Positions 193-46,876 of a stretch of DNA of 64,000 bases are shown in pieces. Made by a program: the position numbers and the translations under genes. The notes under the pieces are model-generated. The model worked only from the letters and a program-made list of their open reading frames with translations, ran no database searches and had not been told where the DNA came from. Source of the stretch: Comamonadaceae bacterium (lineage in GTDB: Bacteria > Pseudomonadota > Gammaproteobacteria > Burkholderiales > Burkholderiaceae_C); the NCBI GenBank assembly GCA_947448735.1, contig CANFOS010000023.1:1-64000 (forward strand), in the 5' to 3' direction. The first letter of the stretch is position 1, and each line of letters opens with the position of its first letter.

Positions 193-240
193 ATTTTCTT
201 GTCCGTCCTTTCTTGCTCTACCCTTTTCAAGGAGAACCCC

Positions 241-1407
241 ATGAATGCCAAACTATTTTTTCGTGCTGCGTTGCTGTCCGCTGTTGCGTTCGCGACCACG
301 TTGCAGCCAGTCGCCGCCCAGCCGACCATCAAGATTGGCTCGATCTTGTCCGTCACTGGACCAGCCGCATTCCTAGGTGAGGACATGAAGGCTGGCATGG
401 AGTTGGCAGTCGAAGAGATCAATGCCAAGGGTGGCGTCGCGGGCCGCAAGATTGATTGGACTTTCTATGACGCGGAAAGCCAGACCCAGAAGGGGCTGAC
501 GGCAACTCGACGTTTGCTTGACCAGGACAAGGTCGACATGATTGTCGGCGGCGGCAATATGAGCGGCATGGCGATCGCCATGCTGGGCCTGACCGAAAAG
601 GCGGCGCTGCCGTTTATGTCAACCGAGGGCGCCATGGATATCGTCGTGCCGGTGGCAGAGCGTCAGTGGACCTTCAAGAGCACGGCTGACGACGAGCAAG
701 TGATGGAGCGCTTGGCTGACTATTTCGTCAAGAAGGGCATCAAGAAAGTCGCCTTTCTGGCCGATTCCAGTGGTTTTGGACAAAGCGCAGTGGGGCAACT
801 TAAGAAGGTGGCCGCGCGTCGCGGCCTCGACGTGATATACGAAACCTTCAATCCCTCGGACACCGATATGACTCCGCAGCTTGGTAAGATAAAAGAGGCT
901 AATGTTCAGTCAATTATCTGTTGGACGGTCACTCCAGCTGGTGTCGTGTTTCTCAAGCAGGCTCAGCAACTCGGGCTGGACAAGCTCAACCTGATCCACA
1001 GTTATGGTTTCGTTGACCAGCGCTACATGCAACTCGCTGGGGATGCTGCCCGTAATCTACTGCTGGTTTCCGTGAAGTTTCCGGTTGGCGCTGATCTGCC
1101 TGATTCGGACCCACAAAAGGCCCGCATAGCCTCATTGACTCGCAATTTCGAAGCCAAGTTCAAGCGCAAGCCGAACCAGTTTGCAGCCCAAACCTACGAC
1201 GCGATTTACTTGGTGAGCGCAGCCATCGAAAAGGCCGGTGGAACCGATCGTGCCAAGGTCAGAGATGCTCTCCGCACTATTAATAATTGGCCAGGCGTCG
1301 GTGGTGTCTTCAACTTCAGCAAAGAGCGTCACTCAGGCCTTTCGAAAGAAGATCTGGTGTTGGTCAACTATCGCGATGGCGCGTTTCGTCTTGCCGACTA
1401 CAAGTGA
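241..1407 (+). CDS. Branched-chain amino acid-type ABC transporter periplasmic substrate-binding protein
   Basis: Signal peptide followed by IKIGSILSVTGPAAFLGEDMKAGMELAVEEINAKGGVAGRKI, LivJ/K-type fold; followed by liv-type permeases and ATPases. Confidence 0.93.
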   Translation: MNAKLFFRAALLSAVAFATTLQPVAAQPTIKIGSILSVTGPAAFLGEDMKAGMELAVEEINAKGGVAGRKIDWTFYDAESQTQKGLTATRRLLDQDKVDMIVGGGNMSGMAIAMLGLTEKAALPFMSTEGAMDIVVPVAERQWTFKSTADDEQVMERLADYFVKKGIKKVAFLADSSGFGQSAVGQLKKVAARRGLDVIYETFNPSDTDMTPQLGKIKEANVQSIICWTVTPAGVVFLKQAQQLGLDKLNLIHSYGFVDQRYMQLAGDAARNLLLVSVKFPVGADLPDSDPQKARIASLTRNFEAKFKRKPNQFAAQTYDAIYLVSAAIEKAGGTDRAKVRDALRTINNWPGVGGVFNFSKERHSGLSKEDLVLVNYRDGAFRLADYK

Positions 1408-1434
1408 GATCGTCATTTTGCCAAGGAGTTCCCT

Positions 1435-2373
1435 ATGAGCGCCGTGCTGACACACCCCACCTCGACAATCCTTGATTTACCTGAGTCGCGCTTTCCGTTG
1501 CGCCTGGGCGTCGAGAACAAGCGTATCCGCGATCTATTTCACAATGCGACCCGACAGCAGTGGGATCCAGCCACTGACATTGACTGGGCTGCGGTGCAAC
1601 CTGAGCAATACAGCGAGGAGCAGCGGCGCGCGGCGCGAATGTACTGGAGCCGGCGGGCATGGGGTGAATACGGTGCCATTTCTGAAAGCCCAGCCCTGCA
1701 AATTCGATTCTGTCAGGAGAAATGTGTCCCGGACATGGCACTCTTTTTCACGATTCGTTCGCAAGAAGAGTCGCGCCATGCCGAGGTCTGCTACCGCATG
1801 GCCGAAGCTCTCGGAGGCTACTTCGAGGAGCCGGCGGCCGCAGTGTTCCAAGGGTCGGTAGCCACACATGGCATACGCAAGATGGCGCTAGACCCGACCA
1901 TTTCGCTTGAAGGCACGATTGCTGCGCTGGTATGCGCTGCAGAGGAAATCGCATTCGATGTGTTTCGTCATCTCATTGAGATCACTGTGAACCCGGTAGC
2001 AAGGCAGGTTTCCAAAATGATTTTGCGCGACGAAGTCCGCCACTGCGCTTTCGGCTGGGCCTTTCTCGAGCAGCGCATGCCGCAGCTAACGCCGCAAGAG
2101 CGTGAAGGAGTTCGTCAGGCGGTCATCACCATGATTGAAAAGGTTGAGCTGAACGGCTATCACAGCTCTTGGCTTGCGCCCGACAGTCCGTCTTCGCGTG
2201 CTGAAACGGAAGTGGATCGCATCACCTGGGAAGCGGGGCTGGGTGCCACTACCGAAGAGCTGGAAATGCCAATCTTCCTGAAGTCAATCGCGGTCATGCG
2301 CCAGCGCATGAAGGATGCATGGGACATCGACATTCCCAAGTTCACCCACTACAAGTTCTCTCAGCCATTTTGA
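1435..2373 (+). CDS. Ferritin-like superfamily (putative diiron oxidase/oxygenase) protein, paralog 1
   Basis: Two ExxH motifs (QEESRHAE and RDEVRHCAFGW) plus upstream helix glutamates (ISESP; AAEEIAF), the carboxylate-bridged diiron four-helix-bundle pattern, loosely AurF-like DExxH. Confidence 0.7.
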   Translation: MSAVLTHPTSTILDLPESRFPLRLGVENKRIRDLFHNATRQQWDPATDIDWAAVQPEQYSEEQRRAARMYWSRRAWGEYGAISESPALQIRFCQEKCVPDMALFFTIRSQEESRHAEVCYRMAEALGGYFEEPAAAVFQGSVATHGIRKMALDPTISLEGTIAALVCAAEEIAFDVFRHLIEITVNPVARQVSKMILRDEVRHCAFGWAFLEQRMPQLTPQEREGVRQAVITMIEKVELNGYHSSWLAPDSPSSRAETEVDRITWEAGLGATTEELEMPIFLKSIAVMRQRMKDAWDIDIPKFTHYKFSQPF

Positions 2374-2392
2374 CCAAGTCAAACTAGCCATC

Positions 2393-3310
2393 ATGAACGC
2401 TGCCGTCCAACCCACTCGAATGCATGTCGAGCGAAGGTTCCCACTTGATCTGCACAAGACCGATGACAACATCCGCAGGCTGTATGAAACGGCCAAACAG
2501 GCACGCTGGAATCCGGAGGCTGATTTGCCATGGGATCAGCACGACCTCGCCGCAGCTTCACCCGAGGCGCGATCCGCAGCTGCTCGGGTTTGGAGTCGTC
2601 GCGCCTGGGTCGAATACACCGGCATGACGGAAACTCCGGCGCTGCTGATTCGTTTCTGCCTGGAGCTCAACCGCGAATCTGATCCGAAATATTTCCTCAC
2701 GGTACGGAACACTGAAGAGGCTTTGCACGTCGAGTCTTTTCATCGTTACGCTGAAGCTTGCTGTGCTTATGTCGAAGCGCCTGCAAATCCAGCGTGGCAA
2801 TCGGTCTTCAACCGCACCATGTATCGGGATGCGCTGAACGCCGAAACATCGATTGATGCCTATGTGGTCACACATTGTGCATTTGTCGATAACCTCGAAT
2901 TTGAACTCGCCAAGGCCTGGTTGAAGAACGCCCAGGAACCGCTGGCCCACGCCATGCTGGAGCGCTGCGCTCGTGATTACGAGCGGCATGCGGCATTCGG
3001 CTGGTTGTATGCGGAGCGACGTGTCATTGGCATGGATACGGCCTTGCGCGAACGTGTTTCTCTCTCACTACAGCGCCACATTGAAGACGCCGAATTTGCC
3101 GGCTACCACTGCTCCAGTCTTTCCACTGCTATCGATGCAGCACCAGAAGCTGATGACCTCGAGATCGTAGCCCGCGCGGGACTCGGTGCGGTCAGTGCCG
3201 CCGACGAGATAGCGATCTTCCGGCGGTGCGTGTCCCTGAGTCGCGAACGCTTTGCAGACATGGGCATCACCCTGCCACCCATCACGCACAAACTTCTCGG
3301 CAGCATGTAG
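2393..3310 (+). CDS. Ferritin-like superfamily protein, paralog 2 (degenerate metal site)
   Basis: Aligns along its length with paralog 1 (WSRRAWVEY / RFCLEL / AFGWLYAERR / AGLGAVSAADE) but the second ExxH is RDYERH. Confidence 0.65.
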   Translation: MNAAVQPTRMHVERRFPLDLHKTDDNIRRLYETAKQARWNPEADLPWDQHDLAAASPEARSAAARVWSRRAWVEYTGMTETPALLIRFCLELNRESDPKYFLTVRNTEEALHVESFHRYAEACCAYVEAPANPAWQSVFNRTMYRDALNAETSIDAYVVTHCAFVDNLEFELAKAWLKNAQEPLAHAMLERCARDYERHAAFGWLYAERRVIGMDTALRERVSLSLQRHIEDAEFAGYHCSSLSTAIDAAPEADDLEIVARAGLGAVSAADEIAIFRRCVSLSRERFADMGITLPPITHKLLGSM

Positions 3311-4182
3311 TGGAACAAGTTGCCAATTTACTTCTTTCGGGGTTGTCGTCGGGTAGCGTGTACGCGCTCGTCGCGCTAGGCTTCAACGTGATCTTCAAGA
3401 GTACCGGTGCGATCAATTTCGCACAGGGGGAATGGGTCATGATGGGCGGCATGGTCGCGGCGACCGCCTATGCTGCGCATTGGCCACTTGGGCTTGCTGT
3501 GATGTGCGCGATCCTCGTGGTCGTCGCTACTGCTCTTCTCTCGGAGCGCCTGATCGTGCGGCGCATCGGCAAGCCAACCGCCCTGGCGGTCACCCTGATG
3601 ATGATTGCCATCGCCATTTGTAGCAAAAGCCTGGTGATGCTCGTGCTGGGGAAGAACCCAGCTAGCCTACCCGGGTTCTCCGGCAGTTCGCCGGTTTTGC
3701 TTTTGAACCTGCGTATCCATCCGCAAACATTCTGGATCGTCGGAATCACCTGTGCTGTCATGCTCGCCACACATTGGTTCTTTGAGCGCACCATCTTGGG
3801 TCGTGCAATGCGCGCGGCGGCTGCACAACCTGAGGCCGCTGCACTGTGCGGAATTGATCCCAAACTGGCACTCGCGCTTTCGTTCGGTCTTGCGGCTGGC
3901 GTTGGCGCGCTTGCCGGCACCATCATCACTCCGATGACGCTGACCTCATTCGACCACGGAACCGTGCTTGGCTTCAAGGGCTTCTCGGCTGCCATGCTCG
4001 GTGGCCTTGGTAGCTTGCCAGGTGCTCTCGTTGGCGGAGTTGTACTTGGCACCCTAGAGGCGCTCGCGGGCGGATTGATCTCCTCCCACTTCAAGGATGC
4101 AGTGGCATTTGTCGCTCTACTCCTGACGCTGTTTCTTCGACCAACCGGCTTGCTAGGGCGCGGCACCGTGGAAAAAGTATGA
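3310..4182 (+). CDS. Branched-chain amino acid-type ABC transporter permease (LivH family)
   Basis: GLSSGSVYALVALGFNVIFKSTGAINFAQGEWVMMGG; probable GTG start overlapping the preceding TAG. Confidence 0.93.
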   Translation: MEQVANLLLSGLSSGSVYALVALGFNVIFKSTGAINFAQGEWVMMGGMVAATAYAAHWPLGLAVMCAILVVVATALLSERLIVRRIGKPTALAVTLMMIAIAICSKSLVMLVLGKNPASLPGFSGSSPVLLLNLRIHPQTFWIVGITCAVMLATHWFFERTILGRAMRAAAAQPEAAALCGIDPKLALALSFGLAAGVGALAGTIITPMTLTSFDHGTVLGFKGFSAAMLGGLGSLPGALVGGVVLGTLEALAGGLISSHFKDAVAFVALLLTLFLRPTGLLGRGTVEKV

Positions 4183-5171
4183 GCAGCACGACCGTCTATT
4201 CACCGTCTGCGCAGGCCCGTAAAAGGATCCGCGTTGTTGGAGTCGTGTGGCTGCTGTTTGCAGCATGGCCATTCATTGCGGGTAATGATTACATCTTGAG
4301 CCTGGGGGTATTCTTTTTTATCAATCTGCTGCTCATTGGCGGTCTCAATCTGGTGATGGGCTTTGGTGGCCAGATTTCATTGTGTCAAGCTGGCTTTTAC
4401 GGTGTTGGTGCCTATGTCTCTGGCGTTTTGTCGGTTAAGTATGGTGTGCCGCCGATCGCTGGCGTGGCCATCGGCACTGCTGGGGCAGCCTTGTCTGCGT
4501 TCATCATTGGCCTGCCCGCACTCAGGTTGCGCGGAGACTATCTGGCAATGGCGACACTTGGATTTAATGCAATTCTGACCGTGCTGTTTAATGAACTGGC
4601 GCCATTGACCGGTGGACCAAATGGGCTCGCCAATATTCCGCCAATATCCATTGGCGGATTCAAATTCGATAACGCAAGCCGCTTTTTCTGGCTCTCATGG
4701 ATTTTCGGCGGTGCCATGATGGTGATGCTCGCCCTGCTATTGGCAAGCCGCGCTGGGCGGGCGCTGCGCGCAGTGGCAGGCAGCGAAATTGCTGCCGGGA
4801 GCATGGGGGTCGACCCGTTTCGCGTCAAGCATCGCGCCTTCATGTTGTCTGCCGCCTTCGCTGGATTGGGTGGTGCCCTATACGCTCACTTCAACCAGTA
4901 CGCGTCCCCAGAGACCTTCAGCTTTGCGACCTCTGTTTTGCTGGTTGTCATGGTCGCCCTTGGCGGGTGGGGCTATTATTGGGGGCCACTGTTCGGTGCC
5001 ATTGTCTTCACGGCAGTGCCCGAGTTACTTCGAAAGTTGCATGATGCCGAATTACTCGTATTCGGTGCCGGCATGATCGTCGTACTGCTTTTCCTGCCCT
5101 CCGGCATTGCCGGGCTGGGTAAGTTGTGGAGAAACTGGCGCACTGGGCGCGGAACTGCGCAGAACACCTGA
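4179..5171 (+). CDS. Branched-chain amino acid-type ABC transporter permease (LivM family)
   Basis: INLLLIGGLNLVMGFGGQISLCQAGFYGVGAYVSG...; ATGA overlap with upstream gene. Confidence 0.93.
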   Translation: MSSTTVYSPSAQARKRIRVVGVVWLLFAAWPFIAGNDYILSLGVFFFINLLLIGGLNLVMGFGGQISLCQAGFYGVGAYVSGVLSVKYGVPPIAGVAIGTAGAALSAFIIGLPALRLRGDYLAMATLGFNAILTVLFNELAPLTGGPNGLANIPPISIGGFKFDNASRFFWLSWIFGGAMMVMLALLLASRAGRALRAVAGSEIAAGSMGVDPFRVKHRAFMLSAAFAGLGGALYAHFNQYASPETFSFATSVLLVVMVALGGWGYYWGPLFGAIVFTAVPELLRKLHDAELLVFGAGMIVVLLFLPSGIAGLGKLWRNWRTGRGTAQNT

Positions 5172-5935
5172 TGACAACCCTTGAACTATCCGGCATTTCG
5201 GTGACTTTCGGTGGGCTGCGCGCGGTCGTTGACCTTTCTTTTGCAGTGCCGGCCGGCAGCATCAAGGGAATCATTGGCCCGAATGGTGCAGGCAAGACCA
5301 CCTTGTTCAACGCCATTTCGGGCATCACTACGCCGCAGTCAGGTCGAGTCCTACTGGGTGGGGGGGATGTCACAGCACTACGACCCCACCAGCGCGCCGC
5401 ACTGGGGCTTTCGCGAACCTTTCAGAACCTTCAGATCTTTGCCGATATGAGCGTGTTGGAGAACGTGATGGTGGGGGCGCATACGCGCCTGAAATCAAGC
5501 TGGTTCGCTGCGCTGGGCGGCTTCACACGTGCTGAAGAAAGAAAAGCAGAGGCCACAGCGTTCCAAAAATTAGCGATGTTAGGGCTCGACAAACGTGCCT
5601 CCGACCTGGCCGGCGATCTCGGCTTTGCTGATGCAAAACTCCTCGAAATCGCCCGAGCGCTGGCTTCCGAGCCGACTGTTCTTTTGCTCGATGAACCCAT
5701 CGCGGGCGTACCGCCGGCAGACCAAGAGCGGCTCGTCGAGGTCATCCGGCAGGTCAACGCCTCAGGGGTGACAGTGGTTCTGGTTGAACACAACATGCGT
5801 GTCGTAATGAAACTATGCTCCGATATTTTGGTCATGAATTATGGTGCCCGTCTGGCAGAGGGAACACCAGAGAGCGTGGCTCGCAATCAGGAGGTGATCG
5901 CCGCTTATCTCGGGCCGGAGACTGCCCATGCTTGA
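5171..5935 (+). CDS. ABC transporter ATP-binding protein (LivG family)
   Basis: Walker A GPNGAGKTT, Walker B VLLLDEP, VEHNM; TGATG overlap with upstream gene. Confidence 0.93.
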   Translation: MTTLELSGISVTFGGLRAVVDLSFAVPAGSIKGIIGPNGAGKTTLFNAISGITTPQSGRVLLGGGDVTALRPHQRAALGLSRTFQNLQIFADMSVLENVMVGAHTRLKSSWFAALGGFTRAEERKAEATAFQKLAMLGLDKRASDLAGDLGFADAKLLEIARALASEPTVLLLDEPIAGVPPADQERLVEVIRQVNASGVTVVLVEHNMRVVMKLCSDILVMNYGARLAEGTPESVARNQEVIAAYLGPETAHA

Positions 5936-6650
5936 AGTCAAGGCACTGCAGGCTGGATATGGCAATTCCAATGTGCTTCATGGCCTTTCATTGAGCGTTC
6001 CAAAAGGTTCCTTTTGTACCTTGATCGGAGCCAACGGGGCCGGCAAGTCAACCACTATGAAGGCGATTGCCGGGTTGGTACGGCCGGTTCAAGGTAGCAT
6101 CGAATTCGAAGGAAAACCGATTGGACATCTGCCGGCTGCCCAAATCGTGACGCGTGGCATCGCTTTGGTACCTGAGGGGCGTCGCGTATTTGGACCAATG
6201 TCGGTGCGCGAAAACTTGCAGATGGGTGCGTTCACTCGCCTGTTTCCTCGCGCCGTCCAAGGTGGACGGGAGGTGGAAATGCGACTCGCCTTCGTACTCG
6301 AAACTTTTCCACGTCTAAAGGAGCGCTTGGCACAGCAGGCTGCAACCCTATCGGGTGGCGAGCAACAAATGTTGGCGATCGGTCGGGCTCTGATGAGCAC
6401 TCCGCACATGCTGCTGCTCGACGAGCCTTCGATGGGCCTTGCCCCGTTGATCGTGCTTCAAGTGTTTGACGTATTGCGGAAGTTGCAAAACTCTGGCCTG
6501 ACCGTGCTGGTCTCCGAGCAAAATGCCAGCGTTGCGCTGGCCCATGCCGACCACGGGTACGTGATCGAAAGCGGGCGCATAGTGCTGGCTGATACAGCAG
6601 CCAACCTTCATGGTAATGACAAGGTCCGGGAGGCTTATCTTGGGATCTGA
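5928..6650 (+). CDS. ABC transporter ATP-binding protein (LivF family)
   Basis: GANGAGKST, LSGGEQQMLAIGRALM, LLLDEPSMGLAPL. Confidence 0.93.
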   Translation: MLEVKALQAGYGNSNVLHGLSLSVPKGSFCTLIGANGAGKSTTMKAIAGLVRPVQGSIEFEGKPIGHLPAAQIVTRGIALVPEGRRVFGPMSVRENLQMGAFTRLFPRAVQGGREVEMRLAFVLETFPRLKERLAQQAATLSGGEQQMLAIGRALMSTPHMLLLDEPSMGLAPLIVLQVFDVLRKLQNSGLTVLVSEQNASVALAHADHGYVIESGRIVLADTAANLHGNDKVREAYLGI

Positions 6651-35249: not shown

Positions 35250-36185
35250 TTATCGCGCCAGGTTTGCGCTGGTACGACCGCTCGGGATGGGGTCTTGGTG
35301 CTTGTGCAGGGCAGTGATGAGGTCATCGGCAAACGCATGGGCTATCACGGGCAGTTGCCTGCCACGCAGACAAGCCAGTACCAGCTGGCCGCGCGGGAAT
35401 CCGCGATCGGCTATTTCACGCGCCACCAGCTCGTCTCCTTCAATGACCGCACCGATGGCAATTTGAAAAGATATTCCCTGTTCATGCACCAAGTAGCTTC
35501 TCATGAACTCAAAGCTGTTGCTTTCAACGGCGGGGCGTAACTTGACCGAGCTGCGGACTAAAAAATTCTCCAGCAGTTGGCGTCCGCCCAAGTCCTGATT
35601 CGGCAAAATGAGTGGGTATTCAATGCAGTCGCGCAGCCGCAAGTCAGGCTGATGGGCAAGCGGATGGCTGCGGTGCATCACCGCCACCAGCTTCTGCTCG
35701 ATTTCAGCGATTCGATCTATGTCTGCGTCAGGCGCAAGGTTGAATATGAGCGCCAGATCCGCTTCAAAATTCCTGAGCGACTTGAGTGCATGCAGGTGGT
35801 CACCAATATGCACATCCACACCCACCATGGGGTGGGTAGACCTGAAGGCCGCGATGGCTCGGGGTAAAAAGGCCGGTGCTAAGGCCTGGCTTGCAATCAC
35901 CTTGACCATCCCGCGACGCAGGCCTTTCAGGTCTTCAATTTCTGTGCGAACCTGTTCTAACTGGGCTGAACGGCTGCGGATGTAAGCCACGAAAAGCTCA
36001 CCCGCGGCGGTCAGGCGCACGCCTCTGGGCAGGCGCTCAAAAATGGCTGTACCCAGCTCCGCTTCCAGATCAAGTACCCGGCGGTTAACGGCTGATGCAG
36101 CAACGTGCAGCCTGTCTGCTGCCTGCCGGATTGAGCCGGCACGGGCAACCTCGTCCACATAATTCAAAAATCGTAGATGGTTCAC
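35250..36185 (-). CDS. LysR-family transcriptional regulator of the adjacent cyclic-amide cluster
   Basis: LRFLNYVDEVARAGSIRQAADRLHVAASAVNRRVLDLEAELGTAIFERLPRGVRLTAAGE; divergent from 36312. Confidence 0.92.
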   Translation of the reverse strand: MNHLRFLNYVDEVARAGSIRQAADRLHVAASAVNRRVLDLEAELGTAIFERLPRGVRLTAAGELFVAYIRSRSAQLEQVRTEIEDLKGLRRGMVKVIASQALAPAFLPRAIAAFRSTHPMVGVDVHIGDHLHALKSLRNFEADLALIFNLAPDADIDRIAEIEQKLVAVMHRSHPLAHQPDLRLRDCIEYPLILPNQDLGGRQLLENFLVRSSVKLRPAVESNSFEFMRSYLVHEQGISFQIAIGAVIEGDELVAREIADRGFPRGQLVLACLRGRQLPVIAHAFADDLITALHKHQDPIPSGRTSANLAR

Positions 36186-36230
36186 AAGGGTTCTTTCTGT
36201 GAAGTGATTTGCTGATTCATATGTTAAGCC

Positions 36231-36247
36231 GTTGCCGTATCGGCAAC
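36231..36247. promoter_or_regulatory. Candidate LysR operator: perfect 7-3-7 inverted repeat with T-N11-A core
   Basis: GTTGCCGTATCGGCAAC in the divergent intergenic region. Confidence 0.5.
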
Positions 36248-36311
36248 ACATAGATCTCAAAAAGTTCTATATAAAGAGCGGTGTCAGGCACGCTGCTTGC
36301 GATACCGGGAC

Positions 36312-36767
36312 ATGACGCGCACCGATTCGCCAATACGCACCAAAGCAGTGATTCAGGCCACATTTGGCCCATCCGCTGATAGCGACTGGGCGCTCAAGGA
36401 TCAATGCGTCAGTTTGGTGCGACAAGTCAAAACTGCCATCTCCGTGCGTTTCGATGCACAGCCACAGCCGCCAGGAATGGACTTGGTCCGACGCGCCTTG
36501 ACGGTGACGGACAGAGGGGGCTTTTCAAGCTCGCGGGATGCCAGTTTGTTGGGCGATGACTGCGTGCTTTTGCCTGAGGCATGCGGTATGCCATCTCCTG
36601 CTGACGGCACCAGAGCCGTTGATTTCATGGTCAAGCAGTCGCAAGGCTTTGTGGCGACCGCCTCATCGCTGCTGCCCGCCTTGGCCGAGCTGACTGTTGC
36701 CCGCCGCATGGGCAAGCAGCGTGGCACCGCTGTATCTACCACCACCAACCTGAAGGACGCCAAATGA
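36312..36767 (+). CDS. Hypothetical protein, first gene of the cyclic-amide catabolic cluster
   Basis: ORF MTRTDSPIRTKAVIQATFGPSADSDWALKDQ..., stop overlaps the next ATG (ATGA); no family recognised. Confidence 0.55.
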   Translation: MTRTDSPIRTKAVIQATFGPSADSDWALKDQCVSLVRQVKTAISVRFDAQPQPPGMDLVRRALTVTDRGGFSSSRDASLLGDDCVLLPEACGMPSPADGTRAVDFMVKQSQGFVATASSLLPALAELTVARRMGKQRGTAVSTTTNLKDAK

Positions 36768-37798
36768 AATTACTCAACCGCCTGTGCCTCGCTCTGGGCG
36801 CTGCAGCACTTGCCTGTTCCATGCCAGCAGTAGCGCAAGAAGTTACCAAAATCAAGTTCACACTCGATTGGAAAATTCAGGGCGTGCACGCTTGGTTTTA
36901 CTGGGCGCAGGACAAAGGTTACTTCAAGGCAGAAAATCTGGATATCACGATCGATCAGGGGGAGGGCTCTGCTGCCGCCGTTTCCCGCGTGATGTCGGGC
37001 ACCTACCAGGCCGGGGTAGGTGATATCAATGCCATTATTCAGGGCGCTTCGACCAAACCAGGCGAAGCCCCGGTGATGGTGTACATGATCTACAACCGCG
37101 CACCGTTTGCGCTCGTCACCAAGGCTGGCAGCACGATCAAAACGCTCAAGGATGTTGAAGGCAAAACGCTGGGCTCTCCCGCTGGCAGTGCGGCGCTGAA
37201 GGTATTTGCTGCGCTTGCCAAGAAAAACAACATCGATGAAAAGAAGGTGACATGGACCAACATGGCGCCCAGCCTGCAAGAGCAAATGTTGATGCGCGGC
37301 CAGGTCGAGGCATCTGCCGTGTTTTCCGCCACCAGCTACATGAATTTTGTGTCGATGGGGATTGATCCCGAGAAAGATATTCGCTGGATTTTCTACAACG
37401 ATCTGGGTTTGGACCTTTACAGCAATGGCGTCTTGGTGACGGCCAAGCTTGCTAAGGAAAGGCCTCAAGCCGTGACGGGCTTGGTCAAGGCCATCAATCG
37501 CGCCATGAAGGACTGCATCACCCAGCCGGACGCTTGCATTGACAATCTCGCCAAGAACGAGCCACTGATCAACAAAGACATCGAAAAGCGCAGGATGGTT
37601 TACGTCCTGAAAAGCAATGTGTTGACGCCTGAGTCGAACGAGTTGGGTTTGGGCGATGTGAGCGATGCCCGCATGACGCGTGCGATCGCGCAAATCGTTG
37701 ACAGCTATGAACTTGCCCGCACGCCTGCTCCTGTTGAGATTTTCAACCGCAGTTTTCTGCCGCCCAAGCAGGAGCGTCTGGTGAAGTCTGCGCTTTGA
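36764..37798 (+). CDS. ABC transporter substrate-binding protein, NMT1/THI5-like (1)
   Basis: KIKFTLDWKIQGVHAWFYWAQDKGYFKAENLDITIDQGEGSAAAVSRVMSGTYQAG. Confidence 0.9.
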   Translation: MKLLNRLCLALGAAALACSMPAVAQEVTKIKFTLDWKIQGVHAWFYWAQDKGYFKAENLDITIDQGEGSAAAVSRVMSGTYQAGVGDINAIIQGASTKPGEAPVMVYMIYNRAPFALVTKAGSTIKTLKDVEGKTLGSPAGSAALKVFAALAKKNNIDEKKVTWTNMAPSLQEQMLMRGQVEASAVFSATSYMNFVSMGIDPEKDIRWIFYNDLGLDLYSNGVLVTAKLAKERPQAVTGLVKAINRAMKDCITQPDACIDNLAKNEPLINKDIEKRRMVYVLKSNVLTPESNELGLGDVSDARMTRAIAQIVDSYELARTPAPVEIFNRSFLPPKQERLVKSAL

Positions 37799-37826
37799 AC
37801 GTCGCACGTTTAAGACCTGCTTTCAA

Positions 37827-39056
37827 ATGACAAGTCCCTGGACCATTTGTAACGCCACCTTACCTGGACGTGATGGGCGTTGGCGCGTCAGCATTCACGC
37901 TGATCGCATCATCAGTGTTGAGCCAGATACCTCGGGCGATCGCGCAGATGTCGATGGGCGAGCCTGGAACGCTGGCGGGCGACTGGTTTCGTCAGCCTTC
38001 GTTGACCCGCATGTTCACATCGACAAAGCGCTGATCAGTGACAGGGTTGCCGACGGTGCAGACGTTGCAGGCTTGAGCGAGGCGATTCGCGCCGTGCGCC
38101 TGCTCAAGGCGGATTTCACGGTTGAAGATGTGGCTGCACGGGCGAGGCAGTCGCTCAATATGGGCTTAGCCCATGGCACCACAACAGTGCGCACCAATTG
38201 CGAAGTAGACCGCTACGTGGGTCAGCGGGCTGTGGAAGGCATCAACAGGGCTGCCCGTGCCATGGCTGGCAAGGTGGACGTACAGGTCACCGCCTTCCCG
38301 CAGGAGGGCTGGTTCAACACCGCTGGAAGCCTTGAAGACGGCGCTGGCCCCTTCATCACGGAGGCGGTGGAAAAAGGGGTCAGGATCGTTGGCGGAAACG
38401 TCAACCGTGCCATTTGGCCCTCTGACCCAGAGCGGCAGGTAGACGAAACTTTCGCGCTGGCCAAACTGCATGACTGCGACATTGACTACCACCTCGATAA
38501 CTGGGACGCAGAATTGGCTTTCACGCTGCCCTATGTCGCTAAAAAAACGATAGAGCAGGGCTGGCAGGGCCGTGTGGCCGTGTCCCATATCGCATCGCTG
38601 GCCTGTGTCAGCCATGCTGTGGCGATCGACACGATTGACCTGATGAAAAAAGCTGATCTGCAGGTCTGCGTTCTGCCAACGCGCATTCGCCTGACCAGGA
38701 CTTTGGAGCTGATGGAAGCCGGCGTCAATGTCTCGTGCGGCACTGACAACATGCGCGATCCTTTTGTCCGCTTTGGTGATGCCGACCCGCTCAAAGCCAT
38801 GCTTTTACTGGCGCAGCTGACCAAGCAACTGCATAACGCTGGGCTCGAAAAGGTGTGGCAGACCATGACCAGCAACGCCGCGCGAATGCTGCGGCTTGAA
38901 AGCTACGGGTTGGCGCCAGGCTGCCTGGCTGACCTGATCGTGCTGGATGCCCCATCCGTTCCTGACGCTATTTTGCAGCAGTCCACCAGGCTCGCTGTGG
39001 TCAAGCGCGGGGTTCAGGTATCCGGGCCGGTGCAGATTGCCCCCGCTGCGTATTGA
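37827..39056 (+). CDS. Metal-dependent amidohydrolase, AtzC/cytosine deaminase-like
   Basis: FVDPHVHIDKALI; HGTTTVRTNCEVD; DYHLDNWDAEL; VAVSHIASLACV; VSCGTDNMRDPF. Confidence 0.85.
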   Translation: MTSPWTICNATLPGRDGRWRVSIHADRIISVEPDTSGDRADVDGRAWNAGGRLVSSAFVDPHVHIDKALISDRVADGADVAGLSEAIRAVRLLKADFTVEDVAARARQSLNMGLAHGTTTVRTNCEVDRYVGQRAVEGINRAARAMAGKVDVQVTAFPQEGWFNTAGSLEDGAGPFITEAVEKGVRIVGGNVNRAIWPSDPERQVDETFALAKLHDCDIDYHLDNWDAELAFTLPYVAKKTIEQGWQGRVAVSHIASLACVSHAVAIDTIDLMKKADLQVCVLPTRIRLTRTLELMEAGVNVSCGTDNMRDPFVRFGDADPLKAMLLLAQLTKQLHNAGLEKVWQTMTSNAARMLRLESYGLAPGCLADLIVLDAPSVPDAILQQSTRLAVVKRGVQVSGPVQIAPAAY

Positions 39057-39094
39057 CTCAGCGTATTGATTCATCAACCAACCGAAAGAAAACC

Positions 39095-40114
39095 ATGAAA
39101 CTATCCCGCCGCTTTGCCTTGTTAGCCCTGTGCGCAGCGCTTTCACCTGCTGCCGTTTTAGCGCAGACCAAAATCAAGATGGTTCTGAACTGGAAATACG
39201 AAGGCGCCCAGTCGTGGTTTTTCCTGGCCCAGGACAAAGGTTATTTCAAGGCCGAGGGGCTGGACGTCGAGTTTGACCAGGGCGAAGGTTCGGCCGCATC
39301 CATCCCCAAGGTGGCATCGGGCGCATACCAAGCTGGCTTTGGTGACCTCAACGCCTTGATTGATCTGGCTTCAAAGCGGCCAGCCGACGCGCCAGTGGCG
39401 GTTTACATGATGTACAACACCCCCCCGTTCACGGTGGTGGTCAAACAGGACAGTCCGATCAAGACGCCCAAAGACCTGGAAGGAAAAACCATCGGTGGGC
39501 CGGCCAACGATGCTGCGCTCAAGCTGTTCCCGGCCTACGCCAAGCTGGCAAAAATCGACGCGAGCAAAGTCAATGTGACCAATATGGCGCCTAACCTGCG
39601 TGAGCAAATGCTGGCGCGCGGTCAGGTCGATGCGGTGTTTGGCTATGTCACCACTGTCACTTTCAGTGCCAAGGCGATGGGGCTGGACCCAGCCAAAGAC
39701 CTGCGGTTTATCCGCTACGGCGACTCGGGTATGGATTTGTATTCAAACGCCGTGTTCTTCTCAAAAAACTTTGTTGCTGAAAATCCAAAAGCGGTTCAAG
39801 GCTTTGTGAAGGCGCTTAACCGGGCCATCAAGGAAGTGGCCGCCAACCCTGATGCCGGTGTTGATTTCGCCATGAAGCGCGAGCCATTGCTCAAGCGCGA
39901 CGTGGAAAAAGAAAAGCTGCTGGCGACGATTCGTAACGACATGAGCCATCCTGAGATTGCGCGTATCGGTCTGGGTGACGTTGATGATGAACGCCTGAAA
40001 AAGGCCATCGGTATCGTGGTGGAGGCCAATCAACTGCCCCGCACCCCCACCACGGGTGAAGTGTTCAATCGCAGCTTTTTGCCTGCGCGCGCCGAGCGGC
40101 TCTCGAAATTTTAA
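39095..40114 (+). CDS. ABC transporter substrate-binding protein, NMT1/THI5-like (2)
   Basis: KIKMVLNWKYEGAQSWFFLAQDKGYFKAEGLDVEFDQGEGSAASIPKVASGAYQAGFGDLNALI; paralog of 36764. Confidence 0.9.
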   Translation: MKLSRRFALLALCAALSPAAVLAQTKIKMVLNWKYEGAQSWFFLAQDKGYFKAEGLDVEFDQGEGSAASIPKVASGAYQAGFGDLNALIDLASKRPADAPVAVYMMYNTPPFTVVVKQDSPIKTPKDLEGKTIGGPANDAALKLFPAYAKLAKIDASKVNVTNMAPNLREQMLARGQVDAVFGYVTTVTFSAKAMGLDPAKDLRFIRYGDSGMDLYSNAVFFSKNFVAENPKAVQGFVKALNRAIKEVAANPDAGVDFAMKREPLLKRDVEKEKLLATIRNDMSHPEIARIGLGDVDDERLKKAIGIVVEANQLPRTPTTGEVFNRSFLPARAERLSKF

Positions 40115-40139
40115 AGTTTTTCAGAAAGACAACATTCCC

Positions 40140-40931
40140 ATGGATCTCCAACTCAAAGGCAAGGTAACCGTGATCACTGGACCGGCCAAAGGCATGGGCC
40201 GGGCTGTCACTTTGGCATTCGCGCGTGAGGGCGCGACCCTGGTGCTGGCTGGCCGCGATATTGCCGCCATCGAGCCTGTTGCTGCTGAGGCGCGTGCCCT
40301 GGGCGTGGATGCGCTCGTCGTATCTTGTGACATGACGGTGCCGGCACAAACCGAGGCGCTGGCAGCCGATGCAATGCGAGCATTCGGGCGCATTGATGTG
40401 CTGGTCAATGTGGCGGGCGGCTCCGGCCCCATTGGCAAGACAGGCTGGGAAACCAGCACCGAAGAATTCAATGAAATTGTGCAGCTCAACATGACGGGCT
40501 GCTTTAACACCATGCATGCGGTGATACCAGAAATGATTGCACGAAAAAGCGGCAAGGTGGTGAATGTGGGCGGCACCTTTGGCATGCGTGGGCGCGCGGG
40601 GCGCATGGCTTATTCGGCATCGAAGTGGGGTCTGCGCGGAATCACCAAAAGTTTTGCACTGGAAGCCGGCCCTTACGGCATCAACGTGAATTGTGTGGCG
40701 CCCGGCATGGTCGATGGACCACGCTTTCGTGAGAAGGTTTGTGCAAACATGGCCGAAAAGCTGGGCATCACGCTTGAAGAAGCCATGACAAGGCATGCTG
40801 CCGATTACGCGCTAAAGCGTGTCACGAATGACGACGATGTTGCCAATGCGTGCCTTTTTATGGCCAGTGATGTGTCGCGTCAGATCACGGGTGTCGACCT
40901 GCCCGTCGACGGCGGCTGGGCCATGCTGTGA
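40140..40931 (+). CDS. Short-chain dehydrogenase/reductase
   Basis: VTVITGPAKGMGRAVTLAFAREGATLVLAGRD; NVAGG; YSASKWGLRGITKSFALE; ITGVDLPVDGGW. Confidence 0.93.
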   Translation: MDLQLKGKVTVITGPAKGMGRAVTLAFAREGATLVLAGRDIAAIEPVAAEARALGVDALVVSCDMTVPAQTEALAADAMRAFGRIDVLVNVAGGSGPIGKTGWETSTEEFNEIVQLNMTGCFNTMHAVIPEMIARKSGKVVNVGGTFGMRGRAGRMAYSASKWGLRGITKSFALEAGPYGINVNCVAPGMVDGPRFREKVCANMAEKLGITLEEAMTRHAADYALKRVTNDDDVANACLFMASDVSRQITGVDLPVDGGWAML

Positions 40932-40942
40932 AAGGAAACCAC

Positions 40943-42412
40943 ATGAAAGAAGTGGACCTGGTCATACGGGGTGCCCGTGTGGTGTCTGCCGATCAGATCA
41001 TCCAAGCCAGCGTTGCCATTGCGGGTGAAAAGATTGTCGCAGTGGGCCATGATGACCTGATGCCAGTTGCACGTGAAGAGATGCGCGCTGACGGCCTGTT
41101 TCTTTTGCCTGGGGCGATCGACAGCCATGTGCACTTTCGTGATCCAGGCTATCCAAACAAGGAAACCTGGAAGACTGGCTCGGCCGCAGCGGCCTGTGGC
41201 GGTGTCACCACGGTGTTTGAAATGCCCAACACCAATCCGCCAACGGCAACGCTGGAAGCCTTGCGGCTCAAGCAGAAGGCTGCCGAGTCGTCTTATGTGG
41301 ATTTTGGCATCCATGGGCTGTTAGGCGACGACACGGTAGACCACCTTGAAGCGCTGCTGGATGCGGGGGTGACGAGTTTTAAAGCGTTTGTCGGCAACAC
41401 CTTTGGTAATTTGCCGGCACCGACCGATGGTGCCTTACTGGAGGGCTTTGAAAAACTTGCCCCGCTGGGTATTCGCACCGTGGTGCACGCAGAAAACTCA
41501 TCCATCCTGAGCAGACGCCAGCAACACATGCAGCTGGCCGGGCGCATTGACGCACTGGCGCATCTGACCGCGCGACCTGCTGTGGCTGAAATTGAGGCCA
41601 TTGGCCGGGTGCTCACCCTTGCCGAGTGGACCGGCGCGCGCGTGCACATTGCTCACCACAGCGCAGCCGATTCTTTGTATCTGCTGCGCGAGGCCAAACG
41701 CCGCGGGGTTGATGTGACAGCCGAGACCTGTCCGCAATATTTGCTGCTCAACACTGAGCACATGCTCAAGCTTGGCGGCATCATGCGGGTCAATCCACCC
41801 ATCCGCGAGGCTCGCCACAACCAACCGCTCTGGGACGCGTTGATGGATGGCACCATTGACATGATCGCGACTGACCATGCGCCACATGCGCCAGACGAAA
41901 AGATGCGCGAGAGCATCTGGAATTGCGATTGCGGGTTTCCGGGAGTGGAAACGCAAATGCCGCTGATGCTGACCGAAATCAATCGAAACCGTGCCACTTT
42001 GATGGACTATGTCCGCTGGAGCGCTGTTGCCCCAGCCAAGGCCTGGGGTCTTTATGGGACGAAAGGCGTCATCGCGCCGGGTGCGGATGCTGACATCACA
42101 CTGATCGACATGCATCGTGCTGGCGTGCTGTCTCAAAACCGGCTCCAGAGCATCAGCAAAATTTCGCCGTGGCATGGTCGTGCCGTGCAGGGCTATCCGC
42201 TGCATACATTGGTTCGCGGCCGTTTCGTGATGCGTGACGGCAAGCTTGTGACAGAAGCAGCGGGCTGGGGCCGTTCCGTCAAAAGCGTGCAAAAAATGCC
42301 AACCCCCAAGCCGCGCAACACAGAGCACTACAGCAGCGCCATCCTTCAGACGCCCCAAGGCGTGCCCGTCAATGCGTTGCCAGTGGGCGAGCCAGTGAAA
42401 GACGACGCATGA
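40943..42412 (+). CDS. Cyclic amidohydrolase, dihydroorotase/allantoinase-like
   Basis: LPGAIDSHVHFRDPGYPNKETWKTGSAAAACGGVTTVFEMPNTNPPT; VHIAHHSAADSL; IATDHAPHAPDEK. Confidence 0.88.
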   Translation: MKEVDLVIRGARVVSADQIIQASVAIAGEKIVAVGHDDLMPVAREEMRADGLFLLPGAIDSHVHFRDPGYPNKETWKTGSAAAACGGVTTVFEMPNTNPPTATLEALRLKQKAAESSYVDFGIHGLLGDDTVDHLEALLDAGVTSFKAFVGNTFGNLPAPTDGALLEGFEKLAPLGIRTVVHAENSSILSRRQQHMQLAGRIDALAHLTARPAVAEIEAIGRVLTLAEWTGARVHIAHHSAADSLYLLREAKRRGVDVTAETCPQYLLLNTEHMLKLGGIMRVNPPIREARHNQPLWDALMDGTIDMIATDHAPHAPDEKMRESIWNCDCGFPGVETQMPLMLTEINRNRATLMDYVRWSAVAPAKAWGLYGTKGVIAPGADADITLIDMHRAGVLSQNRLQSISKISPWHGRAVQGYPLHTLVRGRFVMRDGKLVTEAAGWGRSVKSVQKMPTPKPRNTEHYSSAILQTPQGVPVNALPVGEPVKDDA

Positions 42413-43545
42413 GCGCACAACGGCATCAAAAAGTCGATGTCTGGCGTGTTCCTTGCCGGAGTCCCGCTGATCTTTCAGGCGTTCAGGCGCTGATAGATGC
42501 TGGCGATCTGGTACCCGCCGAGGTGGTTGCGGTGATGGGAAAAACAGAGGGTAATGGCTGCGTCAACGACTTCACGCGCGAGTACGCCAGCGCCGCTTGG
42601 TGCCAGTTGTTGGCGCCAGCGCTGGGCTGCGCCCCGGAGCAGGTTCACGCCAGGGTGGCATTGGTCATGTCGGGCGGCACGGAAGGCGTTTTGTCTCCCC
42701 ACTTCACGGTGTTCACCCGGCGATGGCTCCCGGCTGCTCCCGATGAACCGCAAAGTTCAAAGCGCCTGGTGGTCGGTATCGCAAAAACGCAAGATTTTTT
42801 ACCTGAAGAAATGGGTCGGGTCGCTCAGGTCGATGCGACGGCTCGCGCGACCTTGGCGGCGATGCGCGATGCGGGCATCAGCGATGCTGCTGATGTTCAT
42901 TTTGTCCAGGTCAAATGCCCACTTCTGACGTCTGCAAAAGTCAACGATGCACTGTCGCGGGGTGCTTTGCCTGTCACGCGTGACAGCTATGAGTCCATGG
43001 GCTATTCGCGTGGCGCGTCTGCGCTGGGCGTGGCTGTGGCGCTTGGAGAGCTTCAGCGTGCGCAGGTCAATGACTCAGCGATCTTGTCGGACTGGGGTCT
43101 TTATTCGTCGCTGGCATCGGTTTCTGCTGGCATTGAACTGGAATGCAATGTGGTCATTGTGCTGGGTGAAGCTGTGACCAGTCAGTCCACACTGCGAATT
43201 GCTCACACAGTGATGAAAGATGCCATTGATGCTGCGAGCGTGAGAAAGCTGCTAAACGCAGTGTCGGGCCTGAACTCACAAGACGATTCAACCTTGCTTG
43301 CGCAGCGTGTTGTCAGCTTGTTGGCCAAGGCCGAAGCAAGCCCGGACGGGCGGGTGCGGCAATCCCGCCACACCATGCTGAACGATTCGGACATTCACTC
43401 GACGCGGCATGCCAGGGCCGTGGTTGGCGGGGTATTGGCATCGGTCATTGGCCACTGCGAATTGTACGTATCGGGTGGTGCTGAACATCAAGGCCCAGCA
43501 GGTGGTGGCCCTGTAGCGGCCATCATTCGCATGGCTAACACCTAG
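42409..43545 (+). CDS. Ring-opening amidohydrolase (barbiturase / cyanuric acid hydrolase, AtzD family)
   Basis: Threefold family motifs: GKTEGNGCVNDFTR + VMSGGTEGVLSPH; VQVKCPLL + YSRGASALGVA; LAKAEASPDGRVRQSRHTMLNDSDIHSTRHARAVVGG + VSGGAEHQGPAGGGPVAAI. Confidence 0.9.
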   Translation: MSAQRHQKVDVWRVPCRSPADLSGVQALIDAGDLVPAEVVAVMGKTEGNGCVNDFTREYASAAWCQLLAPALGCAPEQVHARVALVMSGGTEGVLSPHFTVFTRRWLPAAPDEPQSSKRLVVGIAKTQDFLPEEMGRVAQVDATARATLAAMRDAGISDAADVHFVQVKCPLLTSAKVNDALSRGALPVTRDSYESMGYSRGASALGVAVALGELQRAQVNDSAILSDWGLYSSLASVSAGIELECNVVIVLGEAVTSQSTLRIAHTVMKDAIDAASVRKLLNAVSGLNSQDDSTLLAQRVVSLLAKAEASPDGRVRQSRHTMLNDSDIHSTRHARAVVGGVLASVIGHCELYVSGGAEHQGPAGGGPVAAIIRMANT

Positions 43546-43589
43546 AGCGTTGTGCGCACGTCAGTCGCCTCCATTTTTTGAAAGACACC

Positions 43590-44453
43590 ATGGCTAATTC
43601 ATTCATTCAACTGTCAGATGTGATGCTGCGCTACGGCGGGGGAACGCTGGCGCTGGATCACACCACGCTGGGCATCGACGAGGGAGACTTTGTGGCGCTG
43701 GTTGGCCCGAGTGGCTGCGGCAAGTCCACCATTCTCAAGTTGGTGGCGGGGCTGCTTCAACCCAGTTCTGGCGCCGTCATCGCAGGCGGGCGAGAAGTGG
43801 GTGCAGTTTCCTCTGGGAACTCAGGCGGAAACCATGCCAGTGCCACACCTCGACTGCGGATTGGACTGGCTTTCCAGAATCCGACGATGTTGCCTTGGCT
43901 GACGATACTTGAGAACGTGATGATTCCACTGAAAATTGTGGAACCCTTTCGCGCGGAATTCGCACGCAAAAAACGGGGTGAATACAAAGATCGCGCGGAG
44001 TCATTGTTGGCTCAAGTGGGCCTGGCGGGTTTTGGTGACAAGCGGCCCTGGCAACTTTCTGGCGGCATGCTGCAGCGTGCCTCGCTTTGTCGGGCGCTTG
44101 TGCACGATCCCGAACTGCTATTGCTCGATGAGCCGTTTGGTGCGCTTGACCAGTTCACCCGGGAGGAGTTGTGGGACATCATGCAGGCTCTCTGGATGGC
44201 GAAAAAGCCGACGGTGTTGCTGGTGACCCATGATTTGCGCGAGTCAGCGTATCTGGCCAATCGCATTTGCGTGATGAGTTCACGCCCGGGACGCATTCTG
44301 GAGACACGAGCGGTTCCGTTTGACAGGCCGCGTACGCTAGAAAGCAGCTACTCGCCGGAATTTGCTGCGCTTGTGCAGCAACTGCGTATGCGTATTGCTG
44401 ATGCACGCCGCAACGTCGAGGCTGTGGCCCCAGAGCAGGCGGTGGCAGCATGA
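43590..44453 (+). CDS. ABC transporter ATP-binding protein (SsuB/TauB-like)
   Basis: GPSGCGKSTILKLVAGL; LSGGMLQRASLCRAL; LLLDEPFGALDQFTREEL; VTHDLRESAYLANRICVMSSRPG. Confidence 0.93.
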   Translation: MANSFIQLSDVMLRYGGGTLALDHTTLGIDEGDFVALVGPSGCGKSTILKLVAGLLQPSSGAVIAGGREVGAVSSGNSGGNHASATPRLRIGLAFQNPTMLPWLTILENVMIPLKIVEPFRAEFARKKRGEYKDRAESLLAQVGLAGFGDKRPWQLSGGMLQRASLCRALVHDPELLLLDEPFGALDQFTREELWDIMQALWMAKKPTVLLVTHDLRESAYLANRICVMSSRPGRILETRAVPFDRPRTLESSYSPEFAALVQQLRMRIADARRNVEAVAPEQAVAA

Positions 44454-45232
44454 GCACCGTCACACCACAGATGCGCCAGCGCCTGCTGTCTGCCTTTGCG
44501 CTGATCGCATTTTTCGCACTTTGGGAGTTTGCCTGCTTTGCAACTGGCGTTTCTGATCTGATCCTGCCGCGCCCGAGCCAGATCGCACGGGTTCTGTTTG
44601 CCAAAATGCCGCTGCTCTGGCCGCACACGGTTCAGACCCTCTACACCACCCTTGCGGGTTTCGCCATGGGCGTGCTTGCCGGCATTTTTATCGGGGTGGT
44701 GATTGGATCATCAAAGCTGGCCTACGACGTGGCTTATCCTTTACTGGTAGGTTTTTCCAGCATTCCAAAAGTAGCTGTGGTTCCGCTTTTCGTGGTGTGG
44801 TTTGGGTCCGGTACTGTGCCCGCCATTTTGACGTCCATGGTCATCAGTATTTTTCCGGTCGTGGTCAACGTGGCCACGGGGCTTGCCAGCACTGAGCCGG
44901 AGCTTGAGGACGTCTTGAAGGTTTTGGGTGCGAGCAAGCGTGACGTACTGTGGAACGTCGGCTTGCCGCGCGCGCTGCCTTACTTGTTCGCGTCTCTCAA
45001 AATCGCCATCACGCTGGCTTTTGTCGGCACTGTTTTGAGTGAAACCGTCGCCGCCAACAAAGGCATTGGCACGGTCATGATGATTGCAAGCGGGAATTTT
45101 GATGTCCCCCTTGTTTTTGCCGGTCTTTTTCTGCTAGCAGGCATGGGCGTCGCGCTCTACGCGTTGTCCTCGTTGATTGAACATCGCATGACCGGGTGGG
45201 CACAACGCAAGACTGAAATGGTGATGGCGTGA
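44450..45232 (+). CDS. ABC transporter permease (SsuC/TauC-like)
   Basis: TLAGFAMGVLAGIFIGVVIGSSKLAYDVAYPLLVGFSSIPKVAVVPLFVVWFGSG; VLKVLGASKRDVLWNVGLPRALPYLFASLKIAI. Confidence 0.93.
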   Translation: MSTVTPQMRQRLLSAFALIAFFALWEFACFATGVSDLILPRPSQIARVLFAKMPLLWPHTVQTLYTTLAGFAMGVLAGIFIGVVIGSSKLAYDVAYPLLVGFSSIPKVAVVPLFVVWFGSGTVPAILTSMVISIFPVVVNVATGLASTEPELEDVLKVLGASKRDVLWNVGLPRALPYLFASLKIAITLAFVGTVLSETVAANKGIGTVMMIASGNFDVPLVFAGLFLLAGMGVALYALSSLIEHRMTGWAQRKTEMVMA

Positions 45233-45275
45233 TGTCAAACCCCTCAACAAATTACAGAACCCAAGGAAAGCTGTC

Positions 45276-45692
45276 ATGAGTCGTATCAAGATTACCGCTG
45301 GTGGCCTGCATTTCGTTGCAGAAACCAATCCGCACGCACCATTAACCGTAGCCGCCTTTTTAAAGCTGCTGCCTTATCGTCAAAAATTGATCCACGTGCG
45401 CTGGAGTGGTGAGGGCTGTTGGGTGCCGCTGGGTGACTTCAAGCTCGGCGTCAGCTTTGAGAACCACACCAGCCATCCTTCGGCGGGGGACATTCTTTTT
45501 TATCCTGGTGGCTACAGCGAGACAGAAATTATCCTGGCCTATGGAGGCTGTAGTTTTTCCAGCAAGATGGGGCCTCTGGCAGGTAACCATTTTCTGACCA
45601 TCACCGAAGGCCGTGACCAACTGATGACGCTTGGCAAAAAGGTCTTGTGGGAAGGTGCGCAAGACGTTGTTTTCGAGTTGTCAAGCCATTGA
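45276..45692 (+). CDS. DUF3830 family protein
   Basis: MSRIKITAGGLHFVAETNPHAPLTVAAFLKLLPY...HVRWSGEGCWVPLGD...HPSAGDILFYPGGYSETEIILAYGGCSFSSKMGPLAGNHF. Confidence 0.75.
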   Translation: MSRIKITAGGLHFVAETNPHAPLTVAAFLKLLPYRQKLIHVRWSGEGCWVPLGDFKLGVSFENHTSHPSAGDILFYPGGYSETEIILAYGGCSFSSKMGPLAGNHFLTITEGRDQLMTLGKKVLWEGAQDVVFELSSH

Positions 45693-45723: not shown

Positions 45724-46815
45724 TCAGGCAAATTGTTTTTTGATGGCCAGGGCCGCCTGGCTCACAAGGTTTGGCCCTTTGTAAATCAGACCGGTGTAGA
45801 TCTGGACAACGTCTGCGCCCGCGACGATTTTGCTGACAGCATCTTCAGCACTGAGAATCCCGCCCACGCCGATAATTGGAAATTGCTTGCCCAGCGCTTT
45901 GCGCAGTTGCGTGATGACGCGGTTGCTGGCACTTAAAACGGGTGTACCAGAAAGCCCGCCAGTTTCAGTGGCATGGGGTAGCCCTGTGACCGCTTCTCGA
46001 CTGATGGTGGTGTTCGTTGCCAACAGGCCCCAGCCCAGACTGCTTGCGGCCGCGTCCATGGCAGCGTAACGCTGCATGGTGTCGGCAATGACACCGATTT
46101 GCGCATCGTCCAGGTCGGGCGCAATTTTGACGAAAAAGGGCACACGTCGGCCATGTTTTTGAGCAAGCAATTCGCGTCTTTCAGCCATCGCGCCTAAAAG
46201 TGAATCAAGTGCCTCATCGGCCTGCAAGTCACGAAGATTTTTGGTATTGGGGCTCGATATATTGATGGTGACGTAATCAGCGTGGGCGTAGACGCCGTCG
46301 AGGCACGTCAGATAGTCATCAGTCGCACTGGCCATCGGCGTATTTGCGTTTTTCCCGATGTTCAAGCCCAAAAGCATGGGCGGTTTTTCTCCCAAATTTT
46401 GGCCATTTCGAAAGGTGGCGCGCCGCACATTGGCAGTAAATGTGTCGAGCCCGTCATTGTTCAGCCCGAGCCGGTTGATAAGCGCATTGGCCTTGGGCAG
46501 GCGAAATAGGCGTGGCTTCGGATTTCCAGCCTGCGGTTTTGGCGTGACGGTGCCGACTTCAACAAACCCGAACCCCATGGCCGCCAATCCATCAATACAG
46601 CGTGCGTTTTTATCCAGTCCAGCAGCCAGGCCCACGCGGTTGGGAAACTTCAGTCCTGCCAGTTCAATCGGGTCGTCAACCCGCGCAGCGCGATACGCCA
46701 GCGACAAAGGTGTGTGTTGCGTGCGTGCCAGCGAGCCCATCGTCAACTCATGGGCGGTTTCGGCGTCGAGGCCAAATAAAAAGGGGCGAGCGAGGGCGTA
46801 GGGGAGCAGAGCCAT
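45724..46815 (-). CDS. pyrD: Dihydroorotate dehydrogenase (quinone)
   Basis: [68 protein letters not shown]. Confidence 0.97.
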
Positions 46816-46876
46816 TGGATAATTTGCTTTGTTAAATTCAATCCGCATTGTCGCAAACTCAACCCGTCAGGCACGC

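Follow-up and report, generated by a model that had tools for sequence, protein, structure and literature searches.

The locus at positions 35250-45692 of the 64,000-nt stretch of DNA analyzed here (the window) is best read, at a probability we put at about 0.55, as a LysR-controlled nitrogen-scavenging operon in which a flow from an AtzC-like enzyme through AtzD to AtzEG, AtzH and AtzF would be joined to a second arm formed by an SDR family oxidoreductase and a dihydroorotase (DHO)-like enzyme. In the route suggested by the gene content, a two-binding-protein ABC importer would take up small cyclic ureas or imides, and cyanuric acid might arise when the AtzC-like enzyme hydrolyzes an amine on the ring of an s-triazine of the ammelide type. 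AtzD is strongly predicted to open this ring, yielding 1-carboxybiuret, and AtzEG, AtzH and AtzF, whose genes form a second locus in the same genome, are predicted to release the nitrogen as ammonia. In the other, presumably older, arm, the SDR would oxidize or reduce a substrate and the DHO-like enzyme would open a dihydro-ring probably bearing a carboxylate; the linear product might then be cleaved, in relatives, by a cysteine hydrolase, a formamidase-like enzyme or an M20 enzyme.

Ten co-directional reading frames run on the plus strand from 36297 on, with intergenic gaps of -4 to 44 bp, divergent from a gene for a LysR-type regulator (35250-36260, minus strand; Pfam HTH_1 and LysR_substrate). 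The true start of the regulator gene is probably near 36176, and an orthologue is found at the equivalent place in almost all related clusters. All genes listed for this locus by an earlier sequence-only reading were present on the strands given, and matches to Pfam and NCBIfam models bore out its proposal of three hydrolase families in one N-heterocycle catabolic operon. Its gene identities were mostly right, the exception being an "orphan ORF" that is the remnant of a cysteine hydrolase gene (see below). From LysR to the ABC permease, every intact gene tested is under purifying selection, with dN/dS values of 0.03-0.11 in comparison with L002, a sister genome whose AtzD is 98% identical to that of the window. 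Promoter and terminator scans gave signal no greater than in shuffled sequence. The neighboring pyrD (45724-46848) was considered as a pathway member and set aside, since its position beside the cluster is not conserved beyond the closest relatives.

The gene at 42409-43545 (plus strand) encodes an AtzD-family protein whose specificity the sequence-only reading had left open, suggesting phylogenetic placement relative to barbiturases and cyanuric acid hydrolases (CAHs). The protein groups with the latter. It passes the NCBI cyanuric acid amidohydrolase equivalog NF052395 (535.7 bits, cut-off 360), matches Amido_AtzD_TrzD at 505 bits and has three Ser-Lys dyads, and the residue found in AtzD of Pseudomonas ADP is kept at all 26 of the 26 active-site-region positions compared. 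Arg is found at the CAH Arg188 position, where barbiturases have Gln instead (PMC4051656). In a 63-sequence tree, the protein lies among atz-type AtzDs; the AtzD of pADP and other module-free AtzDs branch among those found with the SDR/DHO module, and the latter form no single group, with well-supported branches forcing at least four label changes. Given the equivalog score, active-site identity, Arg site and tree placement, we strongly predict that the gene product is a cyanuric acid hydrolase. It is very unlikely that the locus instead serves a barbiturate or oxidative pyrimidine pathway, with the AtzD-family protein as barbiturase and the lost cysteine hydrolase as ureidomalonase: the two enzymes belong to the same protein family and a solved barbiturase is matched at E=1.8e-83, but the score is far higher against solved AtzD (452 versus 284 bits), and there is no Mo-dehydrogenase among the operon genes. 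Barbiturase identity was thus rejected on the Arg in place of Gln, the score and the tree. Tight clustering with a known pathway, which had been named as grounds for doubting an undescribed cluster, was found for AtzD and not for the SDR/DHO-like module.

The absence of AtzE and AtzF noted earlier holds for the window and not for the genome. Contig C5 of the same genome carries, in a row, genes for AtzF (743 bits), an NMT1-type ABC importer, AtzG, AtzE (690 bits), a GntR regulator and AtzH. The genome encodes all of AtzD, G, E, H and F as complete genes, which are not contiguous, D lying in the window and F, G, E and H on C5. Among relatives, AtzE adjoins related AtzDs in L020, L021, L064 and L067, and L065 has AtzE, AtzF, the binding protein SBP1, a deaminase, the SDR, the DHO-like enzyme and AtzD all together. 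GatA/GatB-like amidases near Variovorax clusters are housekeeping by sequence and were discarded as pathway genes. The cluster shares with the atzDGEHF operon of pADP-1 (Pseudomonas sp. ADP) a divergent LysR gene, an AtzD about 60% identical and, in the genome, AtzE, G, H and F homologues; unlike in that operon, AtzEGHF are on another contig here, and AtzD is embedded with the SDR, DHO-like and AtzC-like enzymes, an NMT1-type importer and a DUF3830 protein.

The enzyme predicted to act before AtzD is an AtzC-like aminohydrolase, a predicted ring deaminase (37827-39056, plus strand; Amidohydro_3; E=2.4e-51 to the AtzC structure 2qt3). It is 32.6% identical to the atzC product of pADP-1, an N-isopropylammelide isopropylaminohydrolase, and keeps AtzC residues H60, H62, K65, Q160, H217, H249, D303 and N304, zinc ligands included (positions per PMC4577212). 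It differs from AtzC in two pocket changes, H219 to Asp and W309 to Phe, and in not adjoining atzA or atzB. The nearest plasmid relatives of this protein (38%) adjoin AtzD in Aminobacter SR38 and Klebsiella, and the recurrence of the pairing in a setting whose gene order is unrelated lends support to a deaminase that supplies AtzD. The window, L002, L003 and L004 alone have the AtzC-like gene beside SBP1; in most relatives this place is taken by another deaminase family (c6, TRZ/ATZ-8-oxoguanine-deaminase-like).

To our knowledge, no cyanurate route has a place for SDR and DHO-like steps. The SDR family NAD(P)-dependent oxidoreductase (40140-40931, plus strand; Pfam adh_short) is 61-90% identical among module relatives. 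The DHO/allantoinase-like cyclic amidohydrolase encoded next to it (40943-42412, plus strand) scores 365.5 bits against the allantoinase AllB model TIGR03178 (cut-off 357.85), yet its HVHFR and MPNT motifs differ from those of allantoinase 3hm7. Dihydroorotases bind the substrate carboxylate through the Arg, Asn and His at the HVHFR, MPNT and TDHAPH places, and allantoinase 3hm7 differs at these places. HVHFR, MPNT, the metal-bridging Lys and TDHAPH are invariant in 17/17 aligned DHO-like sequences. Since dihydroorotase-type motifs are kept in all relatives aligned, we infer that the ring opened by the DHO-like enzyme has a carboxylate at a position adjacent to one of its nitrogens.

Two NMT1/THI5-like binding proteins, SBP1 (periplasmic; 36764-37798) and SBP2 (39095-40114), both on the plus strand and identified by Pfam NMT1, accompany an ABC transporter ATPase (43590-44453, plus strand; Pfam ABC_tran) and permease (44450-45232, plus strand; Pfam BPD_transp_1). 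The SBP1 gene adjoins an amidohydrolase gene in most relatives, and the nearest solved relatives of SBP2 include the pyrimidine binders 3ix1 and THI5. The last gene encodes a DUF3830 protein (45276-45692, plus strand; Pfam PF12903) that is weakly cyclophilin-like, with 3kop as the best fold match (E=0.04) to a low-confidence model (mean pLDDT 59). No paper naming this family was found in the open-access literature searched.

Neighborhood conservation, a check proposed by the sequence-only reading, was examined across genomes. In 26 of 27 relatives retrieved through their AtzD, the same gene set adjoins the AtzD gene, which argues that the cluster is not a product of chance; the DHO-like gene is present in 26/27, with the SDR gene wherever the contig extends to it. 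Among 399 Burkholderiales genomes, seven have a DHO-like orthologue and 26 an AtzD-family match, with both in 7/7 (hypergeometric P about 2e-9, ignoring the relatedness of the 399 genomes); the seven AtzD matches include one distant AtzD type (G002) and one fragment (G180). The recurring core, found in Burkholderiales and Alphaproteobacteria with AtzD present or absent, consists of LysR, the SDR, the DHO-like enzyme, a two-SBP ABC importer, DUF3830 and a deaminase. Skermanella has the module with AtzD and a formamidase-like gene. No published description of this enzyme combination was found in the open-access papers searched; the enzymes are known, and their arrangement is new and conserved.

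AtzD may be an accessory to the core module and not its final step, given that G1067 and G974, outside Burkholderiales, carry the DHO-like gene and core module without AtzD, and that the module on Azospirillum plasmids has no AtzD beside it. It is a tentative but serious possibility that the core (LysR, two SBPs, SDR, DHO-like enzyme, deaminase, DUF3830 and an amide hydrolase) degrades a carboxylated substituted pyrimidine or hydantoin, with AtzD a separate cyanurate gene that only shares the importer and regulator. The dihydroorotase-type substrate motifs and the pyrimidines bound by SBP relatives point this way, as do the formamidase-like gene on the Azospirillum plasmids, the hydantoinase A/B, 2OG oxygenase and M20 genes in L122, and an Amidohydro_2 gene adjoining the DHO-like gene in L125. 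Against it, the AtzD gene is internal to the operon: it shares 4 bp with the DHO-like gene in the window and comes immediately 3´ of that gene across the Burkholderiales set. Other distant module genomes have a cysteine hydrolase (L111) or a formamidase-like gene (L121). We also noted isopenicillin-N-synthase-like oxygenase genes, together with hydantoinase A and B, beside the module in L109 and L122, with a PhyH gene too in L122; the Amidohydro_2 gene of genome G180 (L125:8193-10668), a possible decarboxylase, directly precedes the DHO-like gene.

The operon favored here begins with a pseudogene. The 36297-36767 frame (plus strand) is a decayed RutB/BiuH-like cysteine hydrolase of the isochorismatase family, so the idea of a new gene was dropped. 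In L002, the same place holds an intact 297 aa enzyme; alignment with it revealed an in-frame deletion of 423 bp in the window copy that removed the VVDMQND and KHRLSGF catalytic motifs (catalytic Asp and Lys), and a Cys to Gly change in TDRC. The dN/dS values of the two remnant halves are 0.50 and 0.91, compared with 0.03-0.11 for neighboring cluster genes. Apart from L062, all other relatives spanning the site have the gene intact, and no close second copy was found in the genome. Decay of the whole operon, with loss of the cysteine hydrolase leaving a non-functional remnant in this lineage, is highly improbable: the deletion and relaxed selection concern one gene, whereas the other cluster genes tested keep their low dN/dS values. 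The intact L002 protein falls below the cut-offs of the BiuH (113 versus 370 bits) and RutB (135.5 versus 378 bits) models. Plasmid relatives of the cysteine hydrolase adjoin HpxZ, creatininase, cupin, amidase and BMP-type transporter genes in varied combinations.

Gene content bore out the earlier view that the cluster matches neither the rut operon, the barbiturase pathway nor a contiguous atzDGEHF operon. With rut and reductive pyrimidine catabolism it has in common a RutB-like cysteine hydrolase (in relatives) and a cyclic amidohydrolase, but it is without rutA and rutC-G homologues and a Pyd-type dehydrogenase. Biuret-triuret clusters with BiuH and TrtA are known from Rhizobium and Herbaspirillum (PMC7948467). 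Similarly, Variovorax soli (L008) has BiuH and TrtA-like genes adjoining the LysR gene of its AtzD cluster, and in a genome of the same family (L059) AtzD is beside BiuH, TrtA-like and AtzF genes, with the module absent; in contrast to those clusters, the cysteine hydrolase here reaches neither the BiuH nor the RutB cut-off, and its copy in the window is defunct.

What cyanuric acid hydrolase does in nature is a matter of debate, since its substrate was long held to be almost wholly man-made (PMC4051656); the oxidation of uric acid (PMC7948467) and Paramecium (PMC12342508) have been reported as sources of cyanuric acid. The cluster may reveal a natural compound feeding cyanuric acid breakdown, and a conserved operon of soil and freshwater bacteria in which AtzD is grouped with a deaminase, an SDR, a second ring-opener and a private importer makes the natural-substrate question directly testable. 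We consider it unlikely that all genes of the cluster serve a single pathway acting on a natural amino-5-azapyrimidine or related oxidized-purine s-triazine, in which the deaminase would remove the ring amine, the SDR would form cyanuric acid by oxidizing the ring hydrate, the DHO-like enzyme would directly open a carboxylated or hydrated ring, and both branches would meet at biuret-type products; if this were so, cyanuric acid hydrolase would gain a natural upstream pathway.

AtzD-family genes were also seen in other settings. On Enterobacteriaceae and Aminobacter plasmids (L113, L130 and L131), one occurs with fdrA and DUF1116 genes; carbamate kinase and DUF2877 also appear, an AtzC-like gene is present in L130 and L131, and atzF in L131. 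These plasmids possibly encode a carbamoyl-transfer route from cyanurate. In L070-L073, members of a separate AtzD-family clade (43-47% identical) have a FAD monooxygenase-like gene as neighbor, with CoA-transferase-like and molybdopterin hydroxylase genes near some copies. Elsewhere in the window, a branched-chain-amino-acid-type ABC transporter operon (199-6650) includes a gene for an AurF-like diiron protein (1435-2373); another of its genes (2315-3310) looks similar but has no Pfam match.
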